A stretch of 64,000 nt of DNA from contig JACTAT010000040.1 in the NCBI GenBank assembly GCA_014526335.1, positions 8,311,119 to 8,375,118 of the forward strand, read 5' to 3'. This stretch comes from Chrysaora quinquecirrha (lineage: Eukaryota > Cnidaria > Scyphozoa > Semaeostomeae > Pelagiidae). The translations under genes and the position numbers were made by a program. Positions 1-62,894 of this stretch are shown here, in pieces. Each line of letters opens with the position of its first letter. Position 1 is the first letter of the stretch. A model generated the notes under the pieces. The model worked only from the letters and a program-made list of their open reading frames with translations, was not told where the DNA came from and ran no database searches.

Positions 1-8
1 TTTCATCA

Positions 9-80
9 AGCAGAGTGGCGCAGGGGAAGCGTGCTGGGCCCATAACCCAGAGGTCGGTAGATCGAAACTACCCTCTGCTA
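9..80 (+). tRNA. tRNA-iMet: Initiator tRNA-Met, first complete copy of the left array
   Basis: This is a typical intact 72-nt gene with no intron and no encoded CCA. Internal box A is TGGCGCAGGGGAAGCG and the box B region is AGATCGAAACT. It is preceded by the conserved spacer end TTTCATCA and followed by AATTTTG, a short Pol III T run. Confidence 0.96.
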
Positions 81-154
81 ATTTTGTTTTCCTTGTCTCT
101 TATGATAATGTATCTTAATTGATACAAAATCAGACAATATAAGTTGTTTCATCA
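80..154 (+). promoter_or_regulatory. Array spacer with T-run terminator and conserved upstream block
   Basis: Representative of about 200 spacers. It starts with a short T run (Pol III termination), then a pyrimidine-rich stretch, then GTATCTTAATTGATAC (5-bp inverted arms GTATC/GATAC), AATCAGACAATATAAG and TTTCATCA directly before the tRNA. The A/T-rich TATAAG lies 12-17 nt upstream of the gene and sometimes reads TAAAAG. Its conservation could reflect a Pol III upstream element or just homogenisation of the whole unit. Confidence 0.5.
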
Positions 155-226
155 AGCAGAGTGGCGCAGGGGAAGCGTGCTGGGCCCATAACCCAGAGGT
201 CGGTAGATCGAAACTACCCTCTGCTA
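155..226 (+). tRNA. tRNA-iMet: Initiator tRNA-Met, second copy
   Basis: This 72-nt copy starts exactly 146 bp after the first and has the same stems, CAT anticodon and T loop. It is listed to fix the register of the array. Confidence 0.96.
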
Positions 227-300
227 ATTTTGTTTTCCTTGTCTCTTATGATAATGTATCTTAATTGATACAAAATCAGACAATATAAGTTGTTTCATCA

Positions 301-372
301 AGCAGAGTGGCGCAGGGGAAGCGTGCTGGGCCCATAACCCAGAGGTCGGTAGATCGAAACTACCCTCTGCTA
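301..372 (+). tRNA. tRNA-iMet: Initiator tRNA-Met, third copy
   Basis: Intact 72-nt copy, 146 bp after the previous start. It is followed by the alternative spacer start ATTGTTGTTTTCC, in which the T run lies about 8 nt downstream of the gene. Confidence 0.95.
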
Positions 373-447
373 ATTGTTGTTTTCCTTGTCTCTTATGATA
401 ATGTATCTTAATTGATACAAAATCAGACAATATAAGTTGTTTCATCA

Positions 448-519
448 AGCAGAGTGGCGCAGGGGAAGCGTGCTGGGCCCATAACCCAGAGGTCGGTAGA
501 TCGAAACTACCCTCTGCTA
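448..519 (+). tRNA. tRNA-iMet: Initiator tRNA-Met, fourth copy
   Basis: Intact 72-nt copy, 147 bp after the previous start. The downstream spacer has the TTCTCTCTTTTGATAATG form and the GATAGAAAATTAG variant, which is one of the recurrent spacer subtypes. Confidence 0.95.
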
Positions 520-888
520 ATTGTTGTTTTCCTTCTCTCTTTTGATAATGTATCTTAATTGATAGAAAATTAGACAATATAAGTTGTTTCATCAAGCAGA
601 GTGGCGCAGGGGAAGCGTGCTGGGCCCATAACCCAGAGGTCGGTAGATCGAAACTACCCTCTGCTAATTTTCGTTTTCCTTGTCTCTTATGATAATGTAT
701 CTTAATTGATACAAAATCAGACAATATAAGTTGTTTCATCAAGCAGAGTGGCGCAGGGGAAGCGTGCTGGGCCCATAACCCAGAGGTCGGTAGATCGAAA
801 CTACCCTCTGCTAATTGTTGTTTTCCTTGTCTCTTATGATAATGTATCTTAATTGATACAAAATCAGACAATATAAGTGGTTTCATCA

Positions 889-960
889 AGCAGAGTGGCG
901 CAGGGGAAGCCTGCTGGGCCCATAACCCAGAGGTCGGTAGATCGAAACTACCCTCTGCTA
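889..960 (+). tRNA. tRNA-iMet: Initiator tRNA-Met, GCCTG D-arm subtype
   Basis: This 72-nt copy carries GAAGCCTGCTGGG instead of GAAGCGTGCTGGG. The change replaces G24 with C, so D-stem pair C11:G24 becomes C:C. The subtype recurs many times in both arrays, often with the upstream spacer ending AAGTGGTTTCATCA. It may be a less stable or non-functional tRNA, or simply a marker for array subfamilies. Confidence 0.85.
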
Positions 961-3417
961 ATTTTCGTTTTCCTTGTCTCTTATGATAATGTATCTTAAT
1001 TGATACAAAATCAGACAATATAAGTTGTTTCATCAAGCAGAGTGGCGCAGGGGAAGCGTGCTGGGCCCATAACCCAGAGGTCGGTAGATCGAAACTACCC
1101 TCTGCTAATTGTTGTTTTCCTTCTCTAATTTTCTTTTGATGAAATGTATCTTAATTGATACAAAATCAGACAATATAAGTTGTTTCATCAAGCAGAGTGG
1201 CGCAGGGGAAGCGTGCTGGGCCCATAACCCAGAGGTCGGTAGATCGAAATTACCCTCTGCTAATTGTTGTTTTCCTTCTCTCTGTTGATAATGTATCTTA
1301 ATTGATAGAAAATTAGACAATATAAGTTGTTTCATCAAGCAGAGTGGCGCAGGGGAAGCGTGCTGGGCCCATAACCCAGAGGTCGGTAGATCGAAACTAC
1401 CCTCTGCTAATTTTCGTTTTCCTTGTCTCTTATGATAATGTATCTTAATTGATACAAAATCAGACAATATAAGTTGTTTCATCAAGCAGAGTGGCGCAGG
1501 GGAAGCGTGCTGGGCCCATAACCCAGAGGTCGGTAGATCGAAACTACCCTCTGCTAATTGTTGTTTTCCTTGTCTCTTATGATAATGTATCTTAATTGAT
1601 ACAAAATCAGACAATAAAAGTTGTTTCATCAAGCAGAGTGGCGCAGGGGAAGCGTGCTGGGCCCATAACCCAGAGGTCGGTAGATCGAAACTACCCTCTG
1701 CTAATTTTGTTTTCCTTGTCTCTTATGATAATGTATCTTAATTGATACAAAATCAGACAATATAAGTTGTTTCATCAAGCAGAGTGGCGCAGGGGAAGCG
1801 TGCTGGGCCCATAACCCAGAGGTCGGTAGATCGAAACTACCCTCTGCTAATTGTTGTTTTCCTTCTCTCTTATGATAATGTATCTTAATTGATACAAAAT
1901 CAGACAATATAAGTTGTTTCATCAAGCAGAGTGGCGCAGGGGAAGCGTGCTGGGCCCATAACCCAGAGGTCGGTAGATCGAAACTACCCTCTGCTAATTG
2001 TTGTTTTCCTTCTCTCTTATGATAATGTATCTTAATTGATACAAAATCAGACAATATAAGTGGTTTCATCAAGCAGAGTGGCGCAGGGGAAGCCTGCTGG
2101 GCCCATAACACAGAGGTCGGTAGATCGAAACTACCCTCTGCTAATTGTTGTTATTCTTCTCTCTTTTGATAATGTATCTTAATTGATACAAAATCAGACA
2201 ATAAAAGTTGTTTCATCAAGCAGAGTGGCGCGGGGGAAGCCTGCTGGGCCCATAACCCAGAGGTCTGTAGATCGAAACTACCCTCTGCTAATTGTTGTTT
2301 TCCTTCTCTCTTTTGATACTGTATCTTAATTAATAGAAAATTAGACAATATAAGTTGTTTCATCAAGCAGAGTGGCGCAGGGGAAGCGTGCTGGGCCCAT
2401 AACCCAGAGGTCGGTAGATCGAAACTACCCTCTGCTAATTTTCGTTTTCCTTGTTTTTATGATAATGTATCTTAATTGATACAAAATCAGACAATATAAG
2501 TGGTTTCATCAAGCAGAGTGGCGCAGGGGAAGCCTGCTGGGCCCATAACCCAGAGGTCGGTAGATCGAAACTACCCTCTGCTAATTGTTGTTTTCCTTCT
2601 CTGGCTTAACCCAGAGGTCGGTGATAATGTATCTTAATTGATAGAAAATCAGACAATATAAGTTGGTTTCATCAAGCAGAGTGGCGCAGGGGAAGCCTGC
2701 TGGGCCCATAACCCAGAGGTCGGTAGATCGAAACTACCCTCTGCTAATTGTTGTTTTCCTTGTCTCTTATGATAATGTATCTTAATTGATACAAAATCAG
2801 ACAATATAAGTTGTTTCATCAAGCAGAGTGGCGCAGGGGAAGCGTGCTGGGCCCATAACCCAGAGGTCGGTAGATCGAAACTACCCTCTGCTAATTTTCG
2901 TTTTCCTTGTCTCTTATGATAATGTATCTTAATTGATACAAAATCAGACAATATAAGTTGTTTCATCAAGCAGAGTGGCGCAGGGGAAGCGTGCTGGGCC
3001 CATAACCCAGAGGTCGGTAGATCGAAACTACCCTCTGCTAATTTTCGTTTTCCTTGTTTTTATGATGATAATGTATCTTAATTGATACAAAATCAGACAA
3101 TATAAGTTTTCCTTGTTTCATCAAGCAGAGTGGCGCAGGGGAAGCCTGCTGGGCCCATAACCCAGAGGTCGGTAGATCGAAACTACCCTCTGCTAATTTT
3201 TGTTTTCCTTCTCTCTTATGATAATGTATCTTAATTGATACAAAATCAGACAATATAAGTTGTTTCATCAAGCAGAGTGGCGCAGGGGAAGCGTGCTGGG
3301 CCCATAACCCAGAGGTCGGTAGATCGAAACTACCCTCTGCTAATTGTTGTTTTCCTTCTCTCTTATGATAATGTATCTTAATTGATACAAAATCAGACAA
3401 TATAAGTTGTTTCATCA

Positions 3418-3455
3418 AGCAGAGTTTGGGCCCATAACCTTAGATCGAAACTCTC
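3418..3455 (+). pseudogene. Internally deleted tRNA-iMet copy
   Basis: The copy begins AGCAGAGTTTGGGCCCATAACC and then jumps to TAGATCGAAACT, so most of the D arm and parts of the variable and T regions are missing. The spacer on both sides is normal. It cannot fold as a tRNA. Confidence 0.85.
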
Positions 3456-5157
3456 TTATGATAATGTATCTTAATTGATACAAAATCAGACAATATAAGT
3501 TGTTTCATCAAGCAGAGTGGCGCAGGGGAAGCGTGCTGGGCCCATAACCCAGAGGTCGGTAGATCGAAACTACCCTCTGCTAATTGTTTTCCTTGTCTCT
3601 TATGATAATGTATCTTAATTGTTTTCCTTGTCTCTTATGATAATGTATCTTAATTGATACAAAATCAGACAATATAAGTTGTTTCATCAAGCAGAGTGGC
3701 GCAGGGGAAGCCTGCTGGGCCCATAACCCAGAGGTCGGTAGATCGAAACTACCCTCTGCTAATTGTTGTTTTCCTTCTCTCTTTTGATAATGTATCTTAA
3801 TTGATACAAAATCAGACAATATAAGTTGTTTCATCAAGCAGAGTGGCGCAGGGGAAGCGTGCTGGGCCCATAACCCAGAGGTCGGTAGATCGAAACTACC
3901 CTCTGCTAATTTTCGTTTTCCTTGTCTCTTATGATAATGTATCTTAATTGATACAAAATCAGACAATATAAGTTGTTTCATCAAGCAGAGTGGCGCAGGG
4001 GAAGCGTGCTGGGCCCATAACCCAGAGGTCGGTAGATCGAAACTACCCTCTGCTAATTTTCGTTTTCCTTGTCTCTTATGATAATGTATCTTAATTGATA
4101 CAAAATCAGACAATATAAGTTGTTTCATCAAGCAGAGTGGCGCAGGGGAAGCCTGCTGGGCCCATAACCCAGAGGTCGGTAGATCGAAACTACCCTCTGC
4201 TAATTAGTTGTTTTCCTTCTCTCTTATGATAATGTATCTTAATTGATACAAAATCAGACAATATAAGTTGTTTCATCAAGCAGAGTGGCGCAGGGGAAGC
4301 GTGCTGGGCCCATAACCCAGAGGTCGGTAGATCGAAACTACCCTCTGCTAATTTTCGTTTTCCTTGTCTCTTATGATAATGTATCTTAATTGATACAAAA
4401 TCAGACAATATAAGTTGTTTCATCAAGCAGAGTGGCGCAGGGGAAGCGTGCTGGGCCCATAACCCAGAGGTCGGTAGATCGAAACTACCCTCTGCTAATT
4501 TTGTTTTCCTTGTCTCTTATGATAATGTATCTTAATTGATACAAAATCAGACAATATAAGTTGTTTCATCAAGCAGAGTGGCGCAGGGAAGCCTGCTGGG
4601 CCCATAACCCAGAGGTCGGTAGATCGAAACTACCCTCTGCTAATTAGTGTTTTCCTTCTCTCTTATGATAATGTATCTTAATTGATACAAAATCAGACAA
4701 TATAAGTTGTTTCATCAAGCAGAGTGGCGCAGGGGAAGCGTGCTGGGCCCATAACCCAGAGGTCGGTAGATCGAAACTACCCTCTGCTAATTTTCGTTTT
4801 CCTTGTCTCTTATGATAATGTATCTTAATTGATACAAAATCAGACAATATAAGTGGTTTCATCAAGCAGAGTGGCGCAGGGAAAGCCTGCTGGGCCCATA
4901 ACCCAGAGGTCGGTAGATCGAAACTACCTCTCTGCTAATTAAAATTGTTTTCCTTGCTCTCTTATGATAATGTATGATAATGTATCTTAATTGATACAAA
5001 ATCAGACAATATAAGTTGTTTCATCAAGCAGAGTGGCGCAGGGGAAGCGTGCTGGGCCCATAACCCAGAGGTCGGTAGATCGAAACTACCCTCTGCTAAT
5101 TTTCGTTTCTAATTATCTTAATTGATACAAAATCAGACAATAAAAGTTGTTTCATCA

Positions 5158-5192
5158 AGCAGAGTGGCGCAGGGGAAGCGTGCTGGGCCCAT
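5158..5192 (+). pseudogene. tRNA-iMet 5' half, truncated at the anticodon
   Basis: The copy is normal from AGCAGAG to the CAT anticodon and then continues directly into spacer sequence (GTTTTCCTTCTCTC). The whole 3' half, including box B, is absent. The preceding spacer is also shortened. It is a half-gene with box A only. Confidence 0.85.
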
Positions 5193-8100
5193 GTTTTCCT
5201 TCTCTCTTATGATAATGTATCTTAATTGATACAAAATCAGACAATATAAGTCGTTTCATCAAGCAGAGTGGCGCAGGGGAAGCGTGCTGGGCCCATAACC
5301 CAGAGGTCGGTAGATCGAAACTACCCTCTGCTAATTGTTGTTTTCCTTCTCTCTTTTGATAATGTATCTTAATTGATAGAAAATCAGACAATATAAGTCG
5401 TTTCATCAAGCAGAGTGGCGCAGGGGAAGCGTGCTGGGCCCATAACCCAGAGGTCGGTAGATCGAAACTACCCTCTGCTAATTGGTGTTTTCCTTGTCTC
5501 TTATGATAATGTATCTTAATTGATACAAAATCAGACAATATAAGTTGTTTCATCAAGCAGAGTGGCGCAGGGGAAGCGTGCTGGGCCCATAACCCAGAGG
5601 TCGGTAGATCGAAACTACCCTCTGCTAATTAGTGTTTTCCTTGTCTCTTATGATAATGTATCTTAATTGATACAAAATCAGACAATATAAGTTGTTTCAT
5701 CAAGCAGAGTGGCGCAGGGGAAGCGTGCTGGGCCCATAACCCAGAGGTCGGTAGATCGAAACTACCCTCTGCTAATTAGTGTTTTCCTTCTCTCTTATGA
5801 TAATGTATCTTAATTGATACAAAATCAGACAATATAAGTTGTTTCATCAAGCAGAGTGGCGCAGGGGAAGCGTGCTGGGCCCATAACCCAGAGGTCGGTA
5901 GATCGAAACTACCCTCTGCTAATTTTCGTTTTCCTTGTCTCTTATGATAATGTATCTTAATTGATACAAAATCAGACAATATAAGTTGTTTCATCAAGCA
6001 GAGTGGCGCAGGGGAAGCGTGCTGGGCCCATAACCCAGAGGTCGGTAGATCGAAACTACCCTCTGCTAATTTTTATTTTCCTTGTCTCTTATGATAATGT
6101 ATCTTAATTGATACAAAATCAGACAATATAAGTTGTTTCATCAAGCAGAGTGGCGCAGGGAAGCCTGCTGGGCCCATAACCCAGAGGTCGGTAGATCGAA
6201 ACTACCCTCTGCTAATTAGTGTTTTCCTTCTCTCTTATGATAATGTATCTTAATTGATACAAAATCAGACAATATAAGTCGTTTCATCAAGCAGAGTGGC
6301 GCAGGGGAAGCGTGCTGGGCCCATAACCCAGAGGTCGGTAGATCGAAACTACCCTCTGCTAATTTTCGTTTTCCTTGTCTCTTATGATAATGTATCTTAA
6401 TTGATACAAAATCAGACAATATAAGTTGTTTCATCAAGCAGAGTGGCGCAGGGGAAGCGTGCTGGGCCCATAACCCAGAGGTCGGTAGATCGAAACTACC
6501 CTCTGCTAATTTTATTTTCCTTGTCTCTTATGATAATGTATCTTAATTGATACAAAATCAGACAATATAAGTTGTTTCATCAAGCAGAGTGGCGCAGGGA
6601 AGCCTGCTGGGCCCATAACCCAGAGGTCGGTAGATCGAAACTACCCTCTGCTAATTAGTGTTTTCCTTCTCTCTTATGATAATGTATCTTAATTGATACA
6701 AAATCAGACAATATAAGTCGTTTCATCAAGCAGAGTGGCGCAGGGGAAGCGTGCTGGGCCCATAACCCAGAGGTCGGTAGATCGAAACTACCCTCTGCTA
6801 ATTGTTGTTTTCCTTCTCTCTTTTGATAATGTATCTTAATTGATAGAAAATCAGACAATATAAGTCGTTTCATCAAGCAGAGTGGCGCAGGGGAAGCGTG
6901 CTGGGCCCATAACCCAGAGGTCGGTAGATCGAAACTACCCTCTGCTAATTGTTGTTTTCCTTGTCTCTTATGATAATGTATCTTAATTGATACAAAATCA
7001 GACAATATAAGTTGTTTCATCAAGCAGAGTGGCGCAGGGGAAGCGTGCTGGGCCCATAACCCAGAGGTCGGTAGATCGAAACTACCCTCTGCTAATTGTT
7101 GTTTTCCTTGTCTCTTATGATAATGTATCTTAATTGATACAAAATCAGACAATATAAGTTGTTTCATCAAGCAGAGTGGCGCAGGGGAAGCGTGCTGGGC
7201 CCATAACCCAGAGGTCGGTAGATCGAAACTACCCTCTGCTAATTATTGTTTTCCTTGTCTCTTATGATAATGTATCTTAATTGATACAAAATCAGACAAT
7301 ATAAGTTGTTTCATCAAGCAGAGTGGCGCAGGGGAAGCGTGCTGGGCCCATAACCCAGAGGTCGGTAGATCGAAACTACCCTCTGCTAATTGTTGTTTTC
7401 CTTCTCTCTTATGATAATGTATCTTAATTGATACAAAATCAGACAATATAAGTTGTTTCATCAAGCAGAGTGGCGCAGGGGAAGCCTGCTGGGCCCATAA
7501 CCCAGAGGTCGGTAGATCGAAACTACCCTCTGCTAATTTTCGTTTTCCTTGTCTTTATGATAATGTATCTTAATTGATACAAAATCAGACAATATAAGTT
7601 GTTTCATCAAGCAGAGTGGCGCAGGGGAAGCGTGCTGGGCCCATAACCCAGAGGTCGGTAGATCGAAACTACCCTCTGCTAATTGTTGTTTTCCTTCTCT
7701 CTTTTGATAATGTATCTTAATTGATAGAAAATCAGACAATATAAGTTGTTTCATCAAGCAGAGTGGCGCAGGGGAAGCGTGCTGGGCCCATAACCCAGAG
7801 GTCGGTAGATCGAAACTACCCTCTGCTAATTGTTGTTTTCCTTGTCTCTTATGATAATGTATCTTAATTGATACAAAATCAGACAATATAAGTTGTTTCA
7901 TCAAGCAGAGTGGCGCAGGGGAAGCGTGCTGGGCCCATAACCCAGAGGTCGGTAGATCGAAACTACCCTCTGCTAATTAGTGTTTTCCTTGTCTCTTATG
8001 ATAATGTATCTTAATTGATACAAAATCAGACAATATAAGTTGTTTCATCAAGCAGAGTGGCGCAGGGGAAGCGTGCTGGGCCCATAACCCAGAGGTCGGT

Positions 8101-11100
8101 AGATCGAAACTACCCTCTGCTAATTGTTGTTTTCCTTGTCTCTTATGATAATGTATCTTAATTGATACAAAATCAGACAATATAAGTTGTTTCATCAAGC
8201 AGAGTGGCGCAGGGGAAGCGTGCTGGGCCCATAACCCAGAGGTCGGTAGATCGAAACTACCCTCTGCTAATTGTTGTTTTCCTTCTCTCTTTGATAATGT
8301 ATCTTAATTGATAGAAAATCAGACAATATAAGTTGTTTCATCAAGCAGAGTGGCGCAGGGGAAGCGTGCTGGGCCCATAACCCAGAGGTCGGTAGATCGA
8401 AACTACCCTCTGCTAATTGTTGTTTTCCTTCTCTCTTTGATAATGTATCTTAATTGATACAAAATCAGACAATATAAGTTGTTTCATCAAGCAGAGTGGC
8501 GCAGGGGAAGCATGCTGGGCCCATAACCCAGAGGTCGGTAGATCGAAACTACCCTCTGCTAATTTTCGTTTTCCTTGCTTTTTATGATAATGTATCTTAA
8601 TTGATACAAAATCAGACAATATAAGTGGTTTCATCAAGCAGAGTGGCGCAGGGGAAGCGTGCTGGGCCCATAACCCAGAGGTCGGTAGATCGAAACTACC
8701 CTCTGCTAATTGTTGTTTTCCTTCTCTCTTTTGATAATGTATCTTAATTGATAGAAAATCAGACAATATAAGTCGTTTCATCAAGCAGAGTGGCGCAGGG
8801 GAAGCGTGCTGGGCCCATAACCCAGAGGTCGGTAGATCGAAACTACCCTCTGCTAATTGTTGTTTTCCTTGTCTCTTATGATAATGTATCTTAATTGATA
8901 CAAAATCAGACAATATAAGTTGTTTCATCAAGCAGAGTGGCGCAGGGGAAGCGTGCTGGGCCCATAACCCAGAGGTCGGTAGATCGAAACTACCCTCTGC
9001 TAATTTTCGTTTTCCTTGTCTCTTATGATAATTGTATCTTAATTGATACAAAATCAGACAATAAAAGTTGTTTCATCAAGCAGAGTGGCGCAGGGGAAGC
9101 GTGCTGGGCCCATAACCCAGAGGTCGGTAGATCGAAACTACCCTCTGCTAATTATTGTTTTCCTTGTCTCTTATGATAATGTATCTTAATTGATACAAAA
9201 TCAGACAATATAAGTTGTTTCATCAAGCAGAGTGGCGCAGGGGAAGCGTGCTGGGCCCATAACCCAGAGGTCGGTAGATCGAAACTACCCTCTGCTAATT
9301 TTGTTTTCCTTGTTTTTATGATAATGTATCTTAATTGATACAAAATCAGACAATATAAGTGGTTTCATCAAGCAGAGTGGCGCAGGGGAAGCCTGCTGGG
9401 CCCATAACCCAGAGGTCGGTAGATCGAAACTACCCTCTGCTAATTAGTGTTTTCCTTCTCTCTTATGATAATGTATCTTAATTGATAGAAAATCAGACAA
9501 TATAAGTTGTTTCATCAAGCAGAGTGGCGCAGGGGAAGCGTGCTGGGCCCATAACCCAGAGGTCGGTAGATCGAAACTACCCTCTGCTAATTAGTTGTTT
9601 TCCTTGTCTCTTATGATAATGTATCTTAATTGATACAAAATCAGACAATATAAGTTGTTTCATCAAGCAGAGTGGCGCAGGGGAAGCGTGCTGGGCCCAT
9701 AACCCAGAGGTCGGTAGATCGAAACTACCCTCTGCTAATTTTCGTTTTCCTTGTCTCTTATGATAATGTATCTTAATTGATACAAAATCAGACAATATAA
9801 GTTGTTTCATCAAGCAGAGTGGCGCAGGGGAAGCGTGCTGGGCCCATAACCCAGAGGTCGGTAGATCGAAACTACCCTCTGCTAATTGTTGTTTTCCTTC
9901 TCTCTTTTGATAATGTATCTTAATTGATACAAAATCAGACAATATAAGTTGTTTCATCAAGCAGAGTGGCGCAGGGGAAGCGTGCTGGGCCCATAACCCG
10001 AGGTCGGTAGATCGAAACTACCCTCTGCTAATTGTTGTTTTCCTTCTCTCTTTTGATAATGTATCTTAATTGATAGAAAATCAGACAATAAAAGTTGTTT
10101 CATCAAGCAGAGTGGCGCAGGGGAAGCGTGCTGGGCCCATAACCCAGAGGTCGGTAGATCGAAACTACCTCTGCTAATTTTGTTTTCCTTGTCTCTTATG
10201 ATAATGTATCTTAATTGATACAAAATCAGACAATAAAAGTTGTTTCATCAAGCAGAGTGGCGCAGGGGAAGCGTGCTGGGCCCATAACCCAGAGGTCGGT
10301 AGATCGAAACTACCCTCTGCTAATTTTCGTTTTCCTTGTTTTTTATGATAATGTATCTTAATTGATACAAAATCAGACAATAAAAGTTGTTTCATCAAGC
10401 AGAGTGGCGCAGGGGAAGCCTGCTGGGCCCATAACCCAGAGGTCGGTAGATCGAAACTACCCTCTGCTAATTTTCGTTTTCCTTGTCTCTTATGATAATG
10501 TATCTTAATTGATACAAAATCAGACAATATAAGTTGTTTCATCAAGCAGAGTGGCGCAGGGGAAGCGTGCTGGGCCCATAACCCAGAGGTCGGTAGATCG
10601 AAACTACCCTGCTGCTAATTGTTGTTTTCCTTCTCTCTTTTGATAATGTATCTTAATTGATAGAAAATCAGACAATATAAGTTGTTTCATCAAGCAGAGT
10701 GGCGCAGGGGAAGCGTGCTGGGCCCATAACCCAGAGGTCGGTAGATCGAAACTACCCTCTGCTAATTGTTGTTTTCCTTCTCTCTTATGATAATGTATCT
10801 TAATTGATAGAAAATCAGACAATATAAGTTGTTTCATCAAGCAGAGTGGCGCAGGGGAAGCGTGCTGGGCCCATAACCCAGAGGTCGGTAGATCGAAACT
10901 ACCCTCTGCTAATTTTCGTTTTCCTTGTCTTTTTATGATAATGTATCTTAATTGATACAAAATCAGACAATATAAGTTGTTTCATCAAGCAGAGTGGCGC
11001 AGGGGAAGCGTGCTGGGCCCATAACCCAGAGGTCGGTAGATCGAAACTACCCTCTGCTAATTGTTGTTTTCCTTCTCTCTTTTGATAATGTATCTTAATT

Positions 11101-13917
11101 GATAGAAAATCAGACAATATAAGTCGTTTCATCAAGCAGAGTGGCGCAGGGGAAGCGTGCTGGGCCCATAACCCAGAGGTCGGTAGATCGAAACTACCCT
11201 CTGCTAATTGGTGTTTTCCTTGTCTCTTATGATAATGTATCTTAATTGATACAAAATCAGACAATATAAGTTGTTTCATCAAGCAGAGTGGCGCAGGGGA
11301 AGCGTGCTGGGCCCATAACCCAGAGGTCGGTAGATCGAAACTACCCTCTGCTAATTAGTGTTTTCCTTGTCTCTTATGATAATGTATCTTAATTGATACA
11401 AAATCAGACAATATAAGTTGTTTCATCAAGCAGAGTGGCGCAGGGGAAGCGTGCTGGGCCCATAACCCAGAGGTCGGTAGATCGAAACTACCCTCTGCTA
11501 ATTATTGTTTTCCTTGTCTCTTATGATAATGTATCTTAATTGATACAAAATCAGACAATATAAGTTGTTTCATCAAGCAGAGTGGCGCAGGGGAAGCGTG
11601 CTGGGCCAATAACCCTGAAGTCGGTGGATCGAAACTACCCTCTGCTAATTTTCGTTTTCCTTGTTTTTTATGATAATGTATCTTAATTGATACAAAATCG
11701 GACAATATAAGTGGTTTCATCAAGCAGAGTGGCGCAGGGGAAGCCTGCTGGGCCCATAACCCAGAGGTCGGTAGATCGAAACTACCCTCTGCTAATTGTT
11801 GTTTTCCTTCTCTCTTATGATAATAAATCTTAATTGATAGAAAATCAGACAATATAAGTTGTTTCATCAAGCAGAGTGGCGCAGGGGAAGCCTGCTGGGC
11901 CCATAACCCAGAGGTCGGTAGATCGAAACTACCCTCTGCTAATTTTCGTTTTCCTTGTCTCTTATGATAATGTATCTTAATTGATACAAAATCAGACAAT
12001 ATAAGTTGTTTCATCAAGCAGAGTGGCGCAGGGGAAGCGTGCTGGGCCCATAACCCAGAGGTCGGTAGATCGAAACTACCCTCTGCTAATTGTTGTTTTC
12101 CTTGTCTCTTATGATAATGTATCTTAATTGATACAAAATCAGACAATATAAGTTGTTTCATCAAGCAGAGTGGCGCAGGGGAAGCGTGCTGGGCCCATAA
12201 CCCAGAGGTCGGTAGATCGAAACTACCCTCTGCTAATTGTTGTTTTCCTTCTCTCTTTTGATAATGTATCTTAATTGATACAAAATCAGACAATATAAGT
12301 TGTTTCATCAAGCAGAGTGGCGCAGGGGAAGCGTGCTGGGCCCATAACCCAGAGGTCGGTAGATCGAAACTACCCTCTGCTAATTGTTGTTTTCCTTCTC
12401 TCTTTTGATAATGTATCTTAATTGATAGAAAATTAGACAATATAAGTTGTTTCATCAAGCAGAGTGGCGCAGGGGAAGCGTGCTGGGCCCATAACCCAGA
12501 GGTCGGTAGATCGAAACTACCCTCTGCTAATTTACGTTTTCCTTGTCTCTTATGATAATGTATCTTAATTGATACAAAATCAGACAATAAAAGTTGTTTC
12601 ATCAAGCAGAGTGGCGCCGGGGAAGCGTGCTGGGCCCATAACCCAGAGGTCGGTAGATCGAAACTACCCTCTGCTAATCTTCGTTTTCCTTGTTTTTTAT
12701 GATTATGTATCTTAATTGATACAAAATCAGACAATATAACTGGTTTCATCAAGCAGAGTGGCGCAGGGGAAGCCTGCTGGGCCCATAACCCAGAGGTTGG
12801 TAGATCGAAAGTACCCTCTGCTAATTTTCGTTTTCCTTGTCTCTTATGATAATGTATCTTAATTGATACAAAATCAGACAATATAAGTTGTTTCATCAAG
12901 CAGAGTGGCGCAGGGGAAGCGTGCTGGGCCCATAACCCAGAGGTCGGTAGATCGAAACTACCCTCTGCTAATTGTTGTTTTCATTCTCTCTTTTGATAAT
13001 GTATCTTAATTGATAGAAAATTAGACAATATAAGTTGTTTCATCAAGCAGAGTGGCGCAGGGGAAGCGTGCTGAACCCATAACCCAGAGGTCGGTAGATC
13101 GAAACTACCCTCTGCTAATTGTTGTTATTCTTCTCTCTTTTGATAATGTATCTTAATTGATACAAAATCAGACAATATAAGTTGTTTCATCAAGCAGAGT
13201 GGCGCAGGGGAAGCGTGCTGGGCCCATAACCCAGAGGTCGGTAGATCGAAACTACCCTCTGCTAATTGTTCGTTTTCCTTGTCTTTATGATAATGTATCT
13301 TAATTGATACAAAATCAGACAATATAAGTTGTTTCATCAAGCAGAGTGGCGCAGGGGAAGCGTGCTGGGCCCATAACCCAGAGGTCGGTAGATCGAAACT
13401 ACCCTCTGCTAATTAGTGTTTTCCTTGTCTCTTTTGATAATGTATCTTAATTGATACAAAATCAGACAATATAAGTTGTTTCATCAAGCAGAGTGGCGCA
13501 GGGGAAGCGTGCTGGGCCCATAACCCAGAGGTCGGTAGATCGAAACTACCCTCTGCTAATTTTGTTTTCCTTGTCTCTTTTATGATAATGTATCTTAATT
13601 GATACAAAATCAGACAATAAGTTGTTTCAAAGTGGCGTTTCATCAAGCAGAGTGGCGCAGGGGAAGCGTGCTGGGCCCATAACCCAGAGGTCGGTAGATC
13701 GAAACTACCCTCTGCTAATTGTTGTTTTCCTTCTCTCTTTGATAATGTATCTTAATTGATACAAAATCAGACAATATAAGTTGTTTCATCAAGCAGAGTG
13801 GCGCAGGGGAAGCGTGCTGGGCCCATAACCCAGAGGTCGGTAGATCGAAACTACCCTCTGCTAATTGATAATGTATCTTAATTGATACAAAATCAGACAA
13901 TATAAGTTGTTTCATCA

Positions 13918-13976
13918 AGCAGAGTGGCGCAGGGGAAGCCTGCTGGGCCCATAACCCAGAGGTCGGTAGATCGAAA
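13918..13976 (+). pseudogene. tRNA-iMet lacking its 3' end
   Basis: The sequence is normal (GCCTG subtype) up to GATCGAAA, then joins spacer ATTGTTG. The 3' T stem and acceptor strand are lost. The neighbouring spacers at 13866 and 14110 are also rearranged, so this is a local hotspot of unequal exchange. Confidence 0.8.
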
Positions 13977-14872
13977 ATTGTTGTTTTCCTTCTCTCTTTT
14001 GATAATGTATCTTAATTGATACAAAATCAGACAATAAAGTTGTTTCATCAAGCAGAGTGGCGCAGGGGAAGCGTGCTGGGCCCATAACCCAGAGGTCGGT
14101 AGATCGAAACTACCCTCTGCTAATTACCCTCTGCTAATTGTTGTTTTCCTTGTCTCTTATGATAATGTATCTTAATTGATACAAAATCAGACAATATAAG
14201 TGGTTTCATCAAGCAGAGTGGCGCAGGGGAAGCCTGCTGGGCCCATAACCCAGAGGTCGGTAGATCGAAACTACCCTCTGCTAATTGTTGTTTTCCTTGT
14301 CTTTTTGATAATGTATCTTAATTGATACAAAATCAGACAATATAAGTGGTTTCATCAAGCAGAGTGGCGCAGGGGAAGCCTGCTGGGCCCATAACCCAGA
14401 GGTCGGTAGATCGAAACTACCCTCTGCTAATTGTTGTTTTCCTTCTCTCTTTTGATAATGTATCTTAATTGATAGAAAATCAGACAATATAAGTGGTTTC
14501 ATCAAGCAGAGTGGCGCAGGGGAAGCCTGCTGGGCCCATAACCCAGAGGTCGGTAGATCGAAACTACCCTCTGCTAATTTTCAGTTTTCCTTGTCTTTTA
14601 TGATAATGTATCTTAATTGATACAAAATCAGACAATATAAGTGGTTTCATCAAGCAGAGTGGCGCAGGGGAAGCCTGCTGGGCCCATAACCCAGAGGTCG
14701 GTAGATCGAAACTACCCTCTGCTAATTGTTGTTTTCCTTCTCTTTTGATAATGTATCTTAATTGATACAAAATCAGACAATATAAGTGGTTTCATCAAGC
14801 AGAGTGGCGCAGGGAAAGCCTGCTGGGCCCATAACCCAGAGGTCGGTAGATCGAAACTACCCTCTGCTAATT

Positions 14873-14948
14873 GAGTGGCGCAATATAAGTTGGGAAGCGT
14901 GCTGGGCCCATAACCCAGAGGTCGGTAGATCGAAACTACCCTCTGCTA
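14873..14948 (+). pseudogene. tRNA-iMet with spacer-derived insertion in the D arm
   Basis: The copy starts GAGTGGCGC and then carries CAATATAAGTTG, a block normally found in the upstream spacer, before GGAAGCGTG and a normal 3' half. The acceptor 5' strand is incomplete. It looks like a template-switch or unequal-exchange product. Confidence 0.75.
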
Positions 14949-17900
14949 ATTTTCGTTTTCCTTGTCTCTTATGATAATGTATCTTAATTGATACAAAATC
15001 AGACAATATAAGTTGTTTCATCAAGCAGAGTGGCGCAGGGGAAGCGTGCTGGGCCCATAACCCAGAGGTCGGTAGATCGAAACTACCCTCTGCTAATTAT
15101 TGTTTTCCTTGTCTCTTTATGATAATGTATCTTAATTGATACAAAATCAGACAATATAAGTGGTTTCATCAAGCAGAGTGGCGCAGGGGAAGCGTGCTGG
15201 GCCCATAACCCAGAGGTCGGTAGATCGAAACTACCCTCTGCTAATTTTCGTTTTCCTTGTCTCTTATGATAATGTATCTTAATTGATACAAAATCAGACA
15301 ATATAAGTGGTTTCATCAAGCAGAGTGGCGCAGGGGAAGCCTGCTGGGCCCATAACCCAGAGGTCGGTAGATCGAAACTACCCTCTGCTAATTGTTGTTT
15401 TCCTTCTCTCTTTTGATAATGTATCTTAATTGATACAAAATCAGACAATATAAGTTGTTTCATCAAGCAGAGTGGCGCAGGGGAAGCGTGCTGGGCCCAT
15501 AACCCAGAGGTCGGTAGATCGAAACTACCCTCTGCTAATTTTCGTTTTCCTTGTCTCTTATGATAATGTATCTTAATTGATACAAAATCAGACAATATAA
15601 GTTGTTTCATCAAGCAGAGTGGCGCAGGGGAAGCGTGCTGGGCCCATAACCCAGAGGTCGGTAGATCGAAACTACCCTCTGCTAATTATTGTTTTCCTTG
15701 TCTCTTATGATAATGTATCTTAATTGATACAAAATCAGACAATATAAGTGGTTTCATCAAGCAGAGTGGCGCAGGGGAAGCGTGCTGGGCCCATAACCCA
15801 GAGGTCGGTAGATCGAAACTACCCTCTGCTAATTTTCGTTTTCCTTGTTTTTATGATAATGTATCTTAATTGATACAAAATCAGACAATATAAGTGGTTT
15901 CATCAAGCAGAGTGGCGCAGGGGAAGCCTGCTGGGCCCATAACCCAGAGGTCGGTAGATCGAAACTACCCTCTGCTAATTTTTGTTTTCCTTCTCTCTTT
16001 TGATAATGTATCTTAATTGATACAAAATCAGACAATATAAGTGGTTTCATCAAGCAGAGTGGCGCAGGGGAAGCCTGCTGGGCACATAACCCAGAGGTCG
16101 GTAGGTCGAAACTACCCTCTGCTAATTTTCGTTTTCCTTGTTTTTTATGATAATGTATCTTAATTGATACAAAATCAGACAATATAAGTGGTTTCATCAA
16201 GCAGAGTGGCGCAGGGGAAGCGTGCTGGGCCCATATCCAAGAGGTCGGTAGATCGAAACTACCCTCTGCTAATTTTCTATTTCCTTGTTTTTTATTATAA
16301 TGTATCTTAATTGATAGAAAATCAGACAATATAAGTTGTTTCATCAAGCAGAGTGGCGCAGGGGAAGCGTGCTGGGCCCATAACCCAGAGGTCGGTAGAT
16401 CGAAACTACCCTCTGCTAATTTTCGTTTTCCTTGTTTTTTATGATAATGTATCTTAATTGATACAAAATCAGACAATATAAGTGGTTTCATCAAGCAGAG
16501 TGGCGCAGGGGAAGCCTGCTGGGCCCATAACCCAGAGGTCGGTAGATCGAAACTACCCTCTGCTAATTTTCGTTTTCCTTGTTTTTTATGATAATGTATC
16601 TTAATTGATACAAAATCAGACAATATAAGTGGTTTCATCAAGCAGAGTGGCGCAGGGGAAGCCTGCTGGGCCCATAACCCAGAGGTCGGTAGATCGAAAC
16701 TACCCTCTGCTAATTTTCGTTTTCCTTGTTTTTATGATAATGTATCTTAATTGATACAAAATCAGACAATATAAGTGGTTTCATCAAGCAGAGTGGCGCA
16801 GAGGAAGCGTGCTGGGCCCATAACCCAGAGGTCGGTAGATCGAAACTACCCTCTGCTAATTAGTGTTTTCCTTGTCTTTTGATAATGTATCTTAATTGAT
16901 ACAAAATCAGACAATATAAGTCGTTTCATCAAGCAGAGTGGCGCAGAGGAAGCGTGCTGGGCCCATAACCCAGAGGTCGGTAGATCGAAACTACCCTCTG
17001 CTAATTAGTGTTTTCCTTGTCTCTTATGATAATGTATCTTAATTGATAGAAAATCAGACAATATAAGTTGTTTCATCAAGCAGAGTGGCGCAGGGGAAGC
17101 GTGCTGGGCCCATAACCCAGAGGTCGGTAGATCGAAACTACCCTCTGCTAATTTTCGTTTTCCTTGTTTTTATGATAATGTATCTTAATTGATACAAAAT
17201 CAGACAATATAAGTGGTTTCATCAAGCAGAGTGGCGCAGGGGAAGCCTGCTGGGCCCATAACCCAGAGGTCGGTAGGTCGAAACTACCCTCTGCTAATTT
17301 TCGTTTTCCTTGTTTTTTATGATAATGTATCTTAATTGATAGAAAATCAGACAATATAAGTTGTTTCATCAAGCAGAGTGGCGCAGGGGAAGCGTGCTGG
17401 GCCCATAACCCAGAGGTCGGTAGATCGAAACTACACTCTGCTAATTTTCGTTTTCCTTGTTTTTATGATAATGTATCTTAATTGATACAAAATCAGACAA
17501 TATAAGTTGTTTCATCAAGCAGAGTGGCGCAGAGGAAGCGTGCTGGGCCCATAACCCAGAGGTCGGTAGATCGAAACTACCCTCTGCTAATTGTTGTTTT
17601 CCTTCTCTCTTTTGATAATGTATCTTAATTGATACAAAATCAGACAATATAAGTCGTTTCATCAAGCAGAGTGGCGCAGAGGAAGCGTGCTGGGCCCATA
17701 ACCCAGAGGTCGGTAGATCGAAACTACCCTCTGCTAATTCTTGTTTTCCTTGTTTTTATGATAATGTATCTTAATTGATACAAAATCAGACAATATAAGT
17801 GGTTTCATCAAGCAGAGTGGCGCAGGGGAAGCGTGCTGGGCCCATAACCCAGAGGTCGGTAGATCGAAACTACCCTCTGCTAATTTTCGTTTTCCTTGTT

Positions 17901-20527
17901 TGGAACTTTTCTAATGATAATGTATCTTAAGTGATACAAAATCAGACAATATAAGTGGTTTCATCAAGCAGAGTGGCGCAGTTCTTTAAAGCCTGCTGGG
18001 CCCATAACCCAGAGGTCGGTCGGTAGATCGAAACTACCCTCTGCTAATTTTTTCGTTTTCCTTGTCTCTTATGATAATGTATCTTAATTGATACAAAATC
18101 AGACAATATAAGTTGTTTCATCAAGCAGAGTGGCGCAGAGGAAGCGTGCTGGGCCCATAACCCAGAGGTCGGTAGATCGAAACTACCCTCTGCTAATTTT
18201 ATTTTCCTTGTCTCTTATGATAATGTATCTTAATTGATACAAAATCAGACAATATAAGTGGTTTCATCAAGCAGAGTGGCGCAGGGGAAGCCTGCTGGGC
18301 CCATAACCCAGAGGTCGGTAGATCGAAACTACCCTCTGCTAATTAGTGTTTTCCTTGTCTCATGATAATGTATCTTAATTGATACAAAATCAGACAATAT
18401 AAGTTGTTTCATCAAGCAGAGTGGCGCAGGGAAAGCCTGCTGGGCCCATAACCCAGAGGTCGGTAGATCGAAACTACCCTCTGCTAATTAGTGTTTTCCT
18501 TCTCTCTTATGATAATGTATCTTAATTGATACAAAATCAGACAATATAAGTCGTTTCATCAAGCAGAGTGGCGCAGGGGAAGCGTGCTGGGCCCATAACC
18601 CAGAGGTCGGTAGATCGAAACTACCTCTGCTAATTTTCGTTTTCCTTGTCTCTTATGATAATGTATCTTAATTGATACAAAATCAGACAATATAAGTTGT
18701 TTCATCAAGCAGAGTGGCGCAGAGGAAGCGTGCTGGGCCCATAACCCAGAGGTCGGTAGATCGAAACTACCCTCTGCTAATTTTCGTTTTCCTTGTCTCT
18801 TATGATAATGTATCTTAATTGATACAAAATCAGACAATATAAGTTGTTTCATCAAGCAGAGTGGCGCAGGGAAGCCTGCTGGGCCCATAACCCAGAGGTC
18901 GGTAGATCGAAACTACCCTCTGCTAATTAGTGTTTTCCTTCTCTCTTATGATAATGTATCTTAATTGATACAAAATCAGACAATATAAGTGGTTTCATCA
19001 AGCAGAGTGGCGCAGGGGAAGCCTGCTGGGCACATAACCCAGAGGTCGGTAGGTCGAAACTACCCTCTGCTAATTTTCGTTTTCCTTGTCTCTTATGATA
19101 ATGTATCTTAATTGATACAAAATCAGACAATAAAAGTTGTTTCATCAAGCAGAGTGGCGCAGAGGAAGCGTGCTGGGCCCATAACCCAGAGGTCGGTAGA
19201 TCGAAACTACCCTCTGCTAATAAGTATTTTCCTTGTCTCTTATGATAATGTATCTTCATTGATACAAAATCAGACAATAAAAGTTGTTTCATCAAGCAGA
19301 GTGGCGCAGAGGAAGCCTGCTGGGCCCATAACCCAGAGGTCGGTAGATCGAAACTACCCTCTGCTAATTAGTGTTTTCCTTCTCTCTTATGATAATGTAT
19401 CTTAATTGATACAAAATCAGACAATATAAGTCGTTTCATCAAGCAGAGTGGCGCAGGGGAAGCGTGCTGGGCCCATAACCCAGAGGTCGGTAGATCGAAA
19501 CTACCCTCTGCTAATTTTCGTTTTCCTTGTCTCTTATGATAATGTATCTTAATTGATACAAAATCAGACAATATAAGTTGTTTCATCAAGCAGAGTGGCG
19601 CAGGGGAAGCGTGCTGGGCCCATAACCCAGAGGTCGGTAGATCGAAACTACCCTCTGCTAATTTTTGTTTTCCTTGTCTCTTATGATAATGTATCTTAAT
19701 TGATACAAAATCAGACAATATAAGTGGTTTCATCAAGCAGAGTGGCGCAGGGAAAGCCTGCTGGGCCCATAACCCAGAGGTCGGTAGATCGAAACTACCC
19801 TCTGCTAATTAGTGTTTTCCTTCTCTCTTATGATAATGTATCTTAATTGATACAAAATCAGACAATATAAGTTGTTTCATCAAGCAGAGTGGCGCAGGGG
19901 AAGCGTGCTGGGCCCATAACCCAGAGGTCGGTAGATCGAAACTACCTCTCTGCTAATTGTTGTTTTCCTTGTCTCTTATGATAATGTATCTTAATTGATA
20001 CAAAATCAGACAATATAAGTGGTTTCATCAAGCAGAGTGGCGCAGGGGAAGCCTGCTGGGCCCATAACCCAGAGGTCGGTAGATCGAAACTACCCTCTGC
20101 TAATTAGTGTTTTCCTTCTCTCTTATGATAATGTATCTTAATTGATACAAAATCAGACAATATAAGTTGTTTCATCAAGCAGAGTGGCGCAGGGGAAGCG
20201 TGCTGGGCCCATAACCCAGAGGTCGGTAGATCGAAACTACCCTCTGCTAATTAGTGTTTTCCTTGTCTCTTATGATAATGTATCTTAATTGATACAAAAT
20301 CAGACAATATAAGTCGTTTCATCAAGCAGAGTGGCGCAGAGGAAGCGTGCTGGGCCCATAACCCAGAGGTCGGTAGATCGAAACTACCCTCTGCTAATTG
20401 TTGTTTTCCTTCTCTCTTTTGATAATGTATCTTAATTGATAGAAAATCAGACAATATAAGTCGTTTCATCAAGCAGAGTGGCGCAGAGGAAGCGTGCTGG
20501 GCCCATAACCCAGAGGTCGGTAGATCG

Positions 20528-21027
20528 NNNNNNNNNNNNNNNNNNNNNNNNNNNNNNNNNNNNNNNNNNNNNNNNNNNNNNNNNNNNNNNNNNNNNNNNN
20601 NNNNNNNNNNNNNNNNNNNNNNNNNNNNNNNNNNNNNNNNNNNNNNNNNNNNNNNNNNNNNNNNNNNNNNNNNNNNNNNNNNNNNNNNNNNNNNNNNNNN
20701 NNNNNNNNNNNNNNNNNNNNNNNNNNNNNNNNNNNNNNNNNNNNNNNNNNNNNNNNNNNNNNNNNNNNNNNNNNNNNNNNNNNNNNNNNNNNNNNNNNNN
20801 NNNNNNNNNNNNNNNNNNNNNNNNNNNNNNNNNNNNNNNNNNNNNNNNNNNNNNNNNNNNNNNNNNNNNNNNNNNNNNNNNNNNNNNNNNNNNNNNNNNN
20901 NNNNNNNNNNNNNNNNNNNNNNNNNNNNNNNNNNNNNNNNNNNNNNNNNNNNNNNNNNNNNNNNNNNNNNNNNNNNNNNNNNNNNNNNNNNNNNNNNNNN
21001 NNNNNNNNNNNNNNNNNNNNNNNNNNN
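20528..21027. other. Assembly gap of exactly 500 N
   Basis: The gap starts inside a tRNA T arm (after GGTAGATCG) and ends in Helitron-like sequence. The round length, identical to the second gap, indicates a fixed-size placeholder, so the true array length and the orientation of the flanks are uncertain. Confidence 0.98.
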
Positions 21028-38584: not shown

Positions 38585-39084
38585 NNNNNNNNNNNNNNNN
38601 NNNNNNNNNNNNNNNNNNNNNNNNNNNNNNNNNNNNNNNNNNNNNNNNNNNNNNNNNNNNNNNNNNNNNNNNNNNNNNNNNNNNNNNNNNNNNNNNNNNN
38701 NNNNNNNNNNNNNNNNNNNNNNNNNNNNNNNNNNNNNNNNNNNNNNNNNNNNNNNNNNNNNNNNNNNNNNNNNNNNNNNNNNNNNNNNNNNNNNNNNNNN
38801 NNNNNNNNNNNNNNNNNNNNNNNNNNNNNNNNNNNNNNNNNNNNNNNNNNNNNNNNNNNNNNNNNNNNNNNNNNNNNNNNNNNNNNNNNNNNNNNNNNNN
38901 NNNNNNNNNNNNNNNNNNNNNNNNNNNNNNNNNNNNNNNNNNNNNNNNNNNNNNNNNNNNNNNNNNNNNNNNNNNNNNNNNNNNNNNNNNNNNNNNNNNN
39001 NNNNNNNNNNNNNNNNNNNNNNNNNNNNNNNNNNNNNNNNNNNNNNNNNNNNNNNNNNNNNNNNNNNNNNNNNNNNNNNNNNNN
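38585..39084. other. Second assembly gap of exactly 500 N
   Basis: The left flank is unique sequence and the right flank is tRNA-array spacer on the opposite strand. Placeholder length, so the real distance and orientation are unknown. Confidence 0.98.
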
Positions 39085-39141
39085 TTGTCTGATTTTGTAT
39101 CAATTAAGATACATTATCATAAAAGCAAGGAAAACGAAAAT

Positions 39142-39213
39142 TAGCAGAGGGTAGTTTCGATCTACCGACCTCTGGGTTATGGGCCCAGCATGCTTCCCCT
39201 GCGCCACTCTCCT
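39142..39213 (-). tRNA. tRNA-iMet: Initiator tRNA-Met, first complete copy of the right array
   Basis: 72 nt with normal anticodon and T arms. Its 5' acceptor strand reads AGGAGAG instead of AGCAGAG, so acceptor pair 3:70 becomes a G:G mismatch. The same acceptor change recurs near 42320 and 48220. Confidence 0.85.
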
Positions 39214-42200: not shown

Positions 42201-42439
42201 TTTGTATCAATTAAGATACATTATCATAAGAGACAAGGAAAACGAAAATTTCCAGAGGGTAGTTTCGATCTACCGACCTCTGGGTTATGGGCCCAGCACG
42301 CTTCCCCTGCGCCACTCTCCTTGATGAAACAACTTATATTGTCTAATTTTCTATCAATTAAGATACATTATCAAAAGAGAGAAGGAAAACAACAGTTAGC
42401 AGAGGGTAGTTTCGATCTACCGACCTCTGGGTTATGGGC

Positions 42440-45400: not shown

Positions 45401-45840
45401 CCTGCTTGATGAAACAACTTATATTGTCTAATTTTCTATTAATTAAGATACAGTATCAAAAGAGAGAAGGAAAACAACAATTAGCAGAGGGTAGTTTCGA
45501 TCTACAGACCTCTGGGTTATGGGCCCAGCAGGCTTCCCCTGCGCCACTCTGCTTGATGAAACCACTTATATTGTCCGATTTTGTATCAATTAAGATACAT
45601 TATCATAAAAAACAAGGAAAACGAAAATTAGCAGAGGGTAGTTTCGATCCACCGACTTCAGGGTTATTGGCCCAGCACGCTTCCCCTGCGCCACTCTGCT
45701 TGATGAAACAACTTATATTGTCTGATTTTCTATCAATTAAGATACATTATCAAAAGAGAGAATGAAAACAACAATTAGCAGAGGGTAGTTTCGATCTACC
45801 GACCTCTGGGTTATGGGCCCAGCAGGCTTCCCCCGCGCCA
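42440..45840 (-). repeat. Higher-order repeat: 12-unit block duplicated in the tRNA array
   Basis: Distinctive units recur about 1763 bp apart: the GTGTAGTGTAGATCTACCG unit at 42845 and 44607, the TTGGCCCAGCACG unit near 43900 and 45667, and the CTACTAATATTG spacer near 42477 and 44240. 1763 bp equals 12 units of 147 bp. Confidence 0.8.
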
Positions 45841-48800: not shown

Positions 48801-48898
48801 CTTCCCCTGCACGCCACTCTGCTTAATGAAAGGACGTATATTGTCTGATTTTGTATCAATTAAGATACATTATCATAAGAGACAAGGAAAACACTAAT

Positions 48899-48980
48899 TA
48901 GCAGAGGGTAGCTTCGATCTACCGACCTCTGAGTGATGGACCCAGCACGCTTCCTCTGAGCCTATCTGCGCCATTCTGCT
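48899..48980 (-). pseudogene. Degenerate edge copy of tRNA-iMet
   Basis: 82 nt with about 10 extra bases (GAGCCTATCT) in the D region and changes in the anticodon stem (TGAGTGATGGACCCA). It is unlikely to fold correctly. It lies next to the array edge. Confidence 0.8.
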
Positions 48981-49058
48981 TTTATGAAATGAATATCATT
49001 TTCTGATTTTGCTTCAAGTAACATATATTTTCAAAAAGAAGAAGAAAAACATACTAAT

Positions 49059-49130
49059 TAGCCGAGGGTGGTTTCCATCTAACGACATCTTGGTTATGGG
49101 CCCAGCACGCTTCCTCTGCGCTATGCTGCT
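49059..49130 (-). pseudogene. Outermost, most decayed tRNA-iMet copy
   Basis: 72 nt, still alignable and keeping the CAT anticodon (TTATGGGCC on plus), but with many substitutions in acceptor, T arm and D arm. The array ends here. Beyond it (49131-50179) lies A/T-rich sequence in which no gene or element is recognised. Confidence 0.8.
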
Positions 49131-50179
49131 TGGTCAAATGACTTAGATTATCTGATTTTGTATCAAGCGCCATACATTTGATTAGATCCAGAAAATGAAT
49201 AAGCTTCGACAGACTTTTTCATCCTTGCTTTTGCAATTCACAAAGGATTATACGTTCATCATTTATAAAAAATATTTACAAGTTTTGCTTAAAGCCGATA
49301 ATATCATATGTTAATTGGAGCTAATTTCATTGCTAATAAATTATATTGTGTTTTCTTAATTGTTTAGTTATGGCGTTAAGACATGGCTTCGTAAGTTTTC
49401 GATGCAAATAGGGTGGGGACGGCTACAGTTGTCCGAGATGAAATAATTCACGTATGTCCCAGATTATTGGCATAGATAGCTAAAAGAAAAAATAATTTGG
49501 TAATAATCGGTAAGCTAAGCGTACGAGAACGAGCACGGAAATAAGCAAGACAAATAAGAAAAGCGTTACCTTTTTATCTTAAAGTAAGTCATTAAGCATA
49601 AGGGAGATCATGGAAAGATGTAAAGAAGGATGTGCCTTCGATTTCCTGTGCTTGGGATAACAGTAAGCCGTTAACAAAACATTTGTGACGTGATTGGCTT
49701 CAAAAGCGCAAATATTTCCCAATAAGACGGCCTCGCAAAAAGGAGCACGAGAAAATATGTTAATGTGTTGTCTTCTTCGAGGGTTCTTGCAATGCTCCGC
49801 CAGGATTTATGAAATATCCCTTTGAATTTTTTCAATTCAGTTAATATGCAGATACGATTTCTCTTTTAGCCCTAAATGAAAAAACCGGACCTTAGCAACG
49901 GATGGGCCATTTTTGAATGTCAATCTCCTCTAGACTATATAACGGAGATACTAAGAGCTCAGTCAGAGCGGTTATTTTAGAATATTACACTACTAGTCGT
50001 CGATCTGTATTTTAAAACTGATTAGGCCATTTGGTCATGCAATCATTCAATACATTCTGGATGTTATTTTTATGTCATATGTTATTTTTCTAACATTTTA
50101 TATTTTTCTCAGCACTATTCAAACAGTTATTTTTGTGGCAATACAATAGGGCATTGCTGGTGCAGAAGACGTCTCATGA

Positions 50180-62669: not shown

Positions 62670-62894
<225 letters not shown>

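Follow-up and report, generated by a model that had tools for sequence, protein, structure and literature searches.

Does a locus that carries more than a hundred copies of the initiator tRNA gene hold a set of genes in use, or has a tRNA gene there turned into a satellite? The question is of interest because synthesis of every protein begins with the initiator tRNA, a point at which translation is controlled. We analysed a window of 64,000 nucleotides from the scyphozoan Chrysaora quinquecirrha (contig JACTAT010000040.1, positions 8,311,119 to 8,375,118, forward strand), in which an initial annotation had placed about 140 initiator tRNA-Met genes in a single tandem array. We identified two arrays. 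It appears reasonably probable (about 0.6) from their sequence that both are arrays of initiator tRNA-Met genes of RNA polymerase III (Pol III) which local unequal exchange has spread and homogenised; in the first (array 1) many copies would be in working order, and in the second (array 2) decay would be under way. The features of array 1 on which the analysis relies are the following.

1..20527, + strand: array 1, in which 140 units of about 147 bp follow one another head to tail, each carrying a single initiator tRNA-Met gene
9..80, + strand: first complete gene of array 1, with the same letters as the commonest copy; it served as the 72-nt query
81..154, + strand: typical spacer, with T runs directly 3' of the gene, a variable stretch and then about 52 bp that are more conserved, with TATAA from -17
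889..960, + strand: a gene that represents the copies with a C11-C24 mismatch, C having replaced G24

The blastn search with the 72-nt gene gave 142 anchors in 1-20527; short spurious pieces at 2573 and 3401 were removed by hand, leaving 140 units, and three of these were too partial to score, so that 137 nearly complete copies were evaluated. ARAGORN and Rfam agree with the blastn search, and the number of genes originally proposed is thus borne out, as is the period of 146-148 bp: among the 141 intervals between anchors, 147 bp was found in 88, 146 in 23, 148 in 8 and 145 in 5. Head-to-tail repetition of such extent excludes chance. Each unit contains one gene, in array 2 as in array 1. ARAGORN called 180 tRNA genes across the window. 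Its 132 calls on the + strand comprise 131 Met and 1 Ile, and its 48 on the - strand 44 Met, 3 Ile and 1 that it left unassigned; within the 64,000 nucleotides, none of them lies outside the two arrays. The five calls other than Met represent copies of this gene in which a single change has affected the anticodon region. A scan at a stricter cut-off yielded 208 matches, of which 194 are full length (136 on the + strand, 58 on the - strand) and 14 partial. Among the 136 full-length copies of the + strand, 79 agree in every letter. With Rfam, 121 tRNAs in 1-20527 reached the gathering score, and by manual count 87 of these scored at least 54.5 bits; 19 of the 140 units fall below the gathering score.

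By its sequence, the repeated gene is a eukaryotic cytoplasmic initiator tRNA-Met gene. It combines an A1:U72 pair, GGG/CCC in the anticodon stem, a CAU anticodon, and A54 and A60 in the T loop, which we take to be the features of this tRNA. Among the scored copies, CAU is kept in 136/137 of array 1 and 64/68 of array 2, A1:U72 in 136/137 and 66/68, GGG/CCC in 134/137 and 50/68, and A54 with A60 in 134/137 and 65/68. Copies without any stem mismatch number 90/137 in array 1 and 14/68 in array 2; fully intact copies, those with all stem pairs, all tested initiator features and no insertion or deletion, number 88/137 and 11/68, respectively. Most array 1 copies are thus not pseudogene-like, and their description as clean genes holds, also by the Rfam scores given above. 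An exact 44-base piece of the gene had no match in viral contigs and none in prokaryote genome contigs, as expected for an animal sequence.

The commonest variant is the C11-C24 mismatch in the D stem, present in 37/137 copies of array 1 and 23/68 of array 2. It makes the cloverleaf less stable by computed energy (-26.1 to -21.3 kcal/mol) and reduces the Rfam score from 54.5 to 43.8; the minimum of the bare RNA is not the cloverleaf in either form and is lower in the mismatch form (-29.2 vs -26.9), which calls for caution with the energies. Within array 1, C24 occurs in 23 of the 29 units with G ten bases before the gene, and in 15 of the 96 with T there. Because it is tied to a letter of the spacer, the C24 variant marks a subfamily, one that is found in both arrays.

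A unit consists of the 72-nt gene, a T4 run, a 23-bp variable stretch and a more conserved 52-bp stretch before the next gene, the spacer being about 75 bp in all. A TTTT run starts within 40 nt past the gene in 137/140 units of array 1 and 66/68 of array 2, and these T runs 3' of the gene are predicted to act as Pol III terminators. Upstream, TATAA begins at -17 in 124/139 units of array 1 and 43/68 of array 2; this motif, or an A+T-rich stretch farther upstream, may be the candidate site for TFIIIB. The 147 bp of the unit would be close to the least room that can hold a Pol III gene with its upstream factor site and its terminator. Among 135 nearly complete units of array 1, the gene has a mean pairwise distance of 0.016, the 23 bp that follow it 0.141 and the 52 bp that precede it 0.024, and the corresponding values among 67 units of array 2 are 0.054, 0.183 and 0.074, those of the 23-bp stretch being possibly inflated by the alignment of T runs. 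Overall, the mean distance is 0.038 in array 1 and 0.081 in array 2.

The second array lies on the opposite strand, beyond two assembly gaps:

20528..21027, no strand: assembly gap of exactly 500 N, which array 1 enters in mid-gene
38585..39084, no strand: assembly gap of exactly 500 N, directly after which array 2 begins
39085..49166 (end approximate), - strand: array 2, 68 counted units of the array 1 repeat, inverted, with mostly damaged genes
48880..49190, - strand: outer edge of array 2, where the terminal units have about 80% and 79% identity to the consensus, compared with 91-94% for the next three inward

The 68 - strand units were anchored by blastn in 39085-49300, and 45 of their 67 intervals measure 147 bp. 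Rfam found 45 tRNAs at the gathering score in this array, six of them at 54.5 bits, and 23 of the 68 units score below the gathering threshold. Going outward through hand-chosen stretches, the last five have 94, 92, 91, 80 and 79% identity to the consensus, and past the outer edge just a weak alignment is left (score 19). Variants are thus concentrated toward an edge, as seen in hand-picked windows at the sole true edge, that of array 2. Array 1 has no true end in the window, since it is cut on the left by the window edge and on the right by a 500-N gap, so that its 20,527 bp are a part only; the array was correctly located at 1..20527, but it continues into the gap and does not stop at 20527. 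The two gaps also mean that the window is made of three joined contigs, and the order and orientation of the arrays depend on scaffolding. The initial annotation missed the damaged second array, the two gaps and the large D-stem mismatch class.

How did so many similar copies arise? Units of array 1 that are at most 10 apart are more alike than in shuffled order, with none of 2000 shuffles as low, the effect being small (0.036 vs 0.038); the same holds for array 2, where 47 of 2000 shuffles are as low. Furthermore, 21 of the 29 variant types that have at least two copies in array 1 reach at least two copies in array 2 as well, which indicates that the arrays are of shared descent or still exchanging. 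Together, the likeness of neighbours and the common variants fit unequal exchange among neighbours in arrays of common descent. Array 1 contains 12 runs of four to six near-identical units at varied offsets. No clear period of a higher-order repeat was found, identical pairs in array 2 occurring at lag 12 alone (3/56; lags 1-59 tested). Growth and homogenisation would have proceeded by unequal crossing-over or gene conversion among neighbours, and array 2 might be an older or separated block that was left to decay.

The evidence for selection is mixed, and all the tests used, including those on single and shared variants, assume independent variants. In array 1, gene variants are less often shared among copies than spacer variants (44 single and 8 shared in the gene, 36 and 27 in the spacer; p 0.002); the same contrast between gene and whole spacer gives p 0.12 in array 2. 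There is no excess of C>T or G>A changes at CpG in array 1, with 3 types in 3 cells at 8 positions vs 17 types in 87 cells at 53 other C/G positions, and none in array 2, with 3 types in 4 cells vs 29 in 98. Accordingly, the arrays bear no mark of long germ-line methylation, and decay by CpG methylation was looked for and not found. The reading of both loci as Pol III gene arrays under local unequal exchange is based on the intact copies of array 1, the T4 runs, TATAA at -17, the likeness of neighbours and the decay at the edge of array 2, together with the common variant types, the fewer shared gene variants in array 1 and the lack of a CpG excess.

Several observations weigh against this reading. 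When the gene is set against the upstream 52 bp alone, the contrast between single and shared variants gives p 0.13 (array 1) and p 0.85 (array 2). Gene and spacer do not differ in their proportion of variable sites, either in array 1 (41/72 vs 41/75, p 0.87) or in array 2 (52/72 vs 50/75, p 0.48), and the array 1 gene, with 0.61 single-copy changes per site, is not spared relative to the two parts of the spacer, which have 0.83 and 0.33. The gene body therefore does not appear clearly more conserved than the 52 bp upstream of it, so that a need for the copies does not follow. In addition, more than a quarter of the array 1 copies (37/137) have the C11-C24 mismatch, and all 8 CpG positions fall within the gene, so that selection could hide any decay due to methylation. 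The comparisons of variable sites and single-copy changes gave no sign of strong purifying selection acting on every copy, and that idea was rejected; selection, if any, would act on the number of working copies per array and not on single copies.

The main rival is that the tRNA gene has turned into a mostly idle satellite, a neutral or selfish repeat driven by unequal exchange, with most copies silent and the tRNA supplied by a few copies here or elsewhere. We consider this possible but doubtful. It would explain why purifying selection on single copies is not demonstrable against the upstream 52 bp, why array 2 is mostly damaged (57 of its 68 units are not fully intact) and why the mismatch class is spread through both arrays, and there are precedents for silence: the Entamoeba authors consider it possible that chromatin keeps many of the array copies silent (PMC2652664), and the Arabidopsis Ser-Tyr-Tyr array is described as silenced in most tissues (PMC12308677). 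The satellite explanation is harder to reconcile with the large share of array 1 genes that are fully intact or letter-identical, with the lower sharing of gene variants than of spacer variants in that array and with the lack of CpG decay. That array 1 is an initiator-dosage locus, with at least 140 genes at 147 bp and with C11-G24 and C11-C24 isodecoders of differing stability used at specific stages, for example egg and adult, seems improbable.

By analogy, the many TFIIIC and TFIIIB sites could instead form a chromatin domain or boundary, the tRNA product being secondary, which we regard as very improbable. The precedent would be the human 1q23.3 tRNA repeat, which is described as binding CTCF and was proposed to be a boundary element. 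The upstream 52 bp, nearly as conserved as the gene in array 1 (0.024 vs 0.016), fit factor binding and also plain promoter use; yet the internal promoter boxes would suffice for a boundary, and pairing of the whole tRNA is kept in 90 of the 137 array 1 copies. It is also conceivable that the assembler or scaffolder produced the number of copies or set the two arrays in inverted orientation, given that both break at gaps of exactly 500 N, so that order and orientation are a matter of scaffolding, and that near-identical direct and inverted copies are present at 56373-63446 too. An artefact of this kind is nevertheless scarcely credible: 102 of the 140 unit sequences in array 1 and 65 of the 68 in array 2 are distinct, which rules out assembler copying of one unit, and no collinear run (at least four units, at most two differences each) is common to the two arrays, so that array 2 does not repeat array 1 in order; the inverted layout itself may yet stem from the scaffolding. 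The idea that the two arrays are haplotypes of each other was likewise rejected, by the same lack of collinear runs. A tRNA-derived short interspersed element (SINE) was rejected as well, the copies lying head to tail at fixed spacing with no ARAGORN copy beyond the arrays in the window (target-site duplications were not searched for).

Both arrays are monomeric tRNA arrays of the eukaryotic kind, with near-identical copies and like spacers placed head to tail on one strand. In the oomycete Phytophthora infestans, monomeric tRNA arrays have been described that include 271 tRNA-Cys copies with a 513-nt unit and tRNA-Met arrays on two chromosomes (PMC9584435). They resemble the arrays studied here in the tandem repetition of one tRNA gene, the near-identity of copies and the tendency of variants toward one edge, and differ in the length of the unit (513 nt for tRNA-Cys, 147 bp here); the type of tRNA-Met is not specified in that source (PMC9584435). 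Closer to Chrysaora, the cnidarian Hydractinia is described as having evenly spaced arrays of noncoding RNA genes, among them tRNAs for all 20 amino acids, in which copies and spacers alike are near-identical and the copies number tens to hundreds. Its authors saw tRNA arrays in Nematostella as well, but none of the other cnidarian genomes in their comparison had RNA arrays (PMC11067881). The 75-bp spacer found here is shorter than the spacers described for the P. infestans and Hydractinia arrays (PMC9584435, PMC11067881). For the anthozoan Nematostella, a 2010 survey gives more than 17,000 tRNA genes and pseudogenes, 89% of them clustered; large clusters of tRNA genes, fifty and more, are common to both animals, but neighbours in the Nematostella clusters are, as described, mostly heterogeneous and serve different amino acids (PMC2888827). 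Entamoeba also has tandem arrays of uniform copies, but its units are described as holding up to five different tRNA genes, in Entamoeba histolytica with short tandem repeats between them (PMC2652664). The Arabidopsis Ser-Tyr-Tyr cluster, presented as a model for tissue-specific use, is similar in its tandem tRNA genes and in an intact core with flanks richer in variants and pseudogenes, and dissimilar in its three-gene unit and its elongator tRNAs, with 54 clustered tRNA-Tyr genes (PMC12308677).

Long open reading frames, of up to 492 codons (11502-12980, - strand), run antisense over array 1; they are spurious, a consequence of 147 being a multiple of 3. A protein search with an antisense frame of the array returned 20 records among the 7994 candidates scored, and 11 of these records were examined; such a search is blind to an array unless its unit length is divisible by 3 and one frame stays open through it. 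One database frame, P0121, is the antisense reading of five tandem initiator tRNA copies with like spacers on a contig of 114,471 bases. That array, in another genome and known here from the translated frame alone, differs in its period of 192 bp (4/4 intervals) and in its spacer. Two other frames, P0122 and P0123, contain two copies each, 144 and 264 nt apart. Antisense frames of this kind are usable for finding tRNA arrays. Given P0121 and the published single-tRNA arrays, the arrangement reported here is not unique, and its density, with a 75-bp spacer, is the striking part; the initial annotation had called a single-gene initiator array of such density unusual, a claim that the arrays of P. 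infestans and Hydractinia weaken. We do not claim a record density, as too few genomes were compared. No report of a tandem array of the initiator tRNA alone was found in the titles and abstract openings listed for open-licence papers, which is weak evidence of absence.

The rest of the window contains further repeats and open reading frames. About 1.1 kb of degenerate GTTGCCCAGTTGCTCG-like repeats of 8 and 16 bp occupy 23235-24355, and a satellite with about 43 copies of a 37-bp unit lies at 27587-29154. Two minisatellite blocks of AGTACAGCGG-type units in opposite orientation, at 33955-34455 and 34871-35308, resemble the arms of a fold-back element. A 301-amino-acid open frame at 35721-36626 (- strand) has several C2H2 zinc fingers. 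At about 50180-50440 (+ strand), a tRNA-like head without an ARAGORN call is followed by about 200 bp that end in repeated TTGC; by eye, this element looks like a tRNA-derived SINE, unrelated to the array. Long open frames of 722 and 180 amino acids lie at 52258-54920 (- strand); neither had a Pfam match, and the longer one (52258-54426) had no relative among 7986 candidates scored.

Transposon-like sequence with near-identical direct and inverted copies extends over 56373-63446, including an inverted self-match at 59364-62037 (2682 aligned bases, 98.2%) and a match between 57921-59268 and 62100-63446 (1350 bases at 99.6%). Either the insertions are young and nested, or the assembly is locally at fault. 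Relatives of the transposon-like frame at 60718-61515 number 125; of the 120 listed, the only one with an organism name comes from the octocoral Paramuricea clavata, at 42% identity.

To conclude, if both loci are initiator tRNA-Met gene arrays maintained by local unequal exchange, many copies of array 1 could be transcribed, which would give Chrysaora an initiator tRNA capacity in large excess, on which eggs or phases of fast growth may draw. With more than 100 copies at one locus, and with sequence classes that are distinguishable in RNA, the arrays make it possible to test in a natural setting whether the number of tRNA genes tracks demand or drifts through unequal exchange. They would also add a much denser form to the single-tRNA arrays published for Hydractinia and P. 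infestans.

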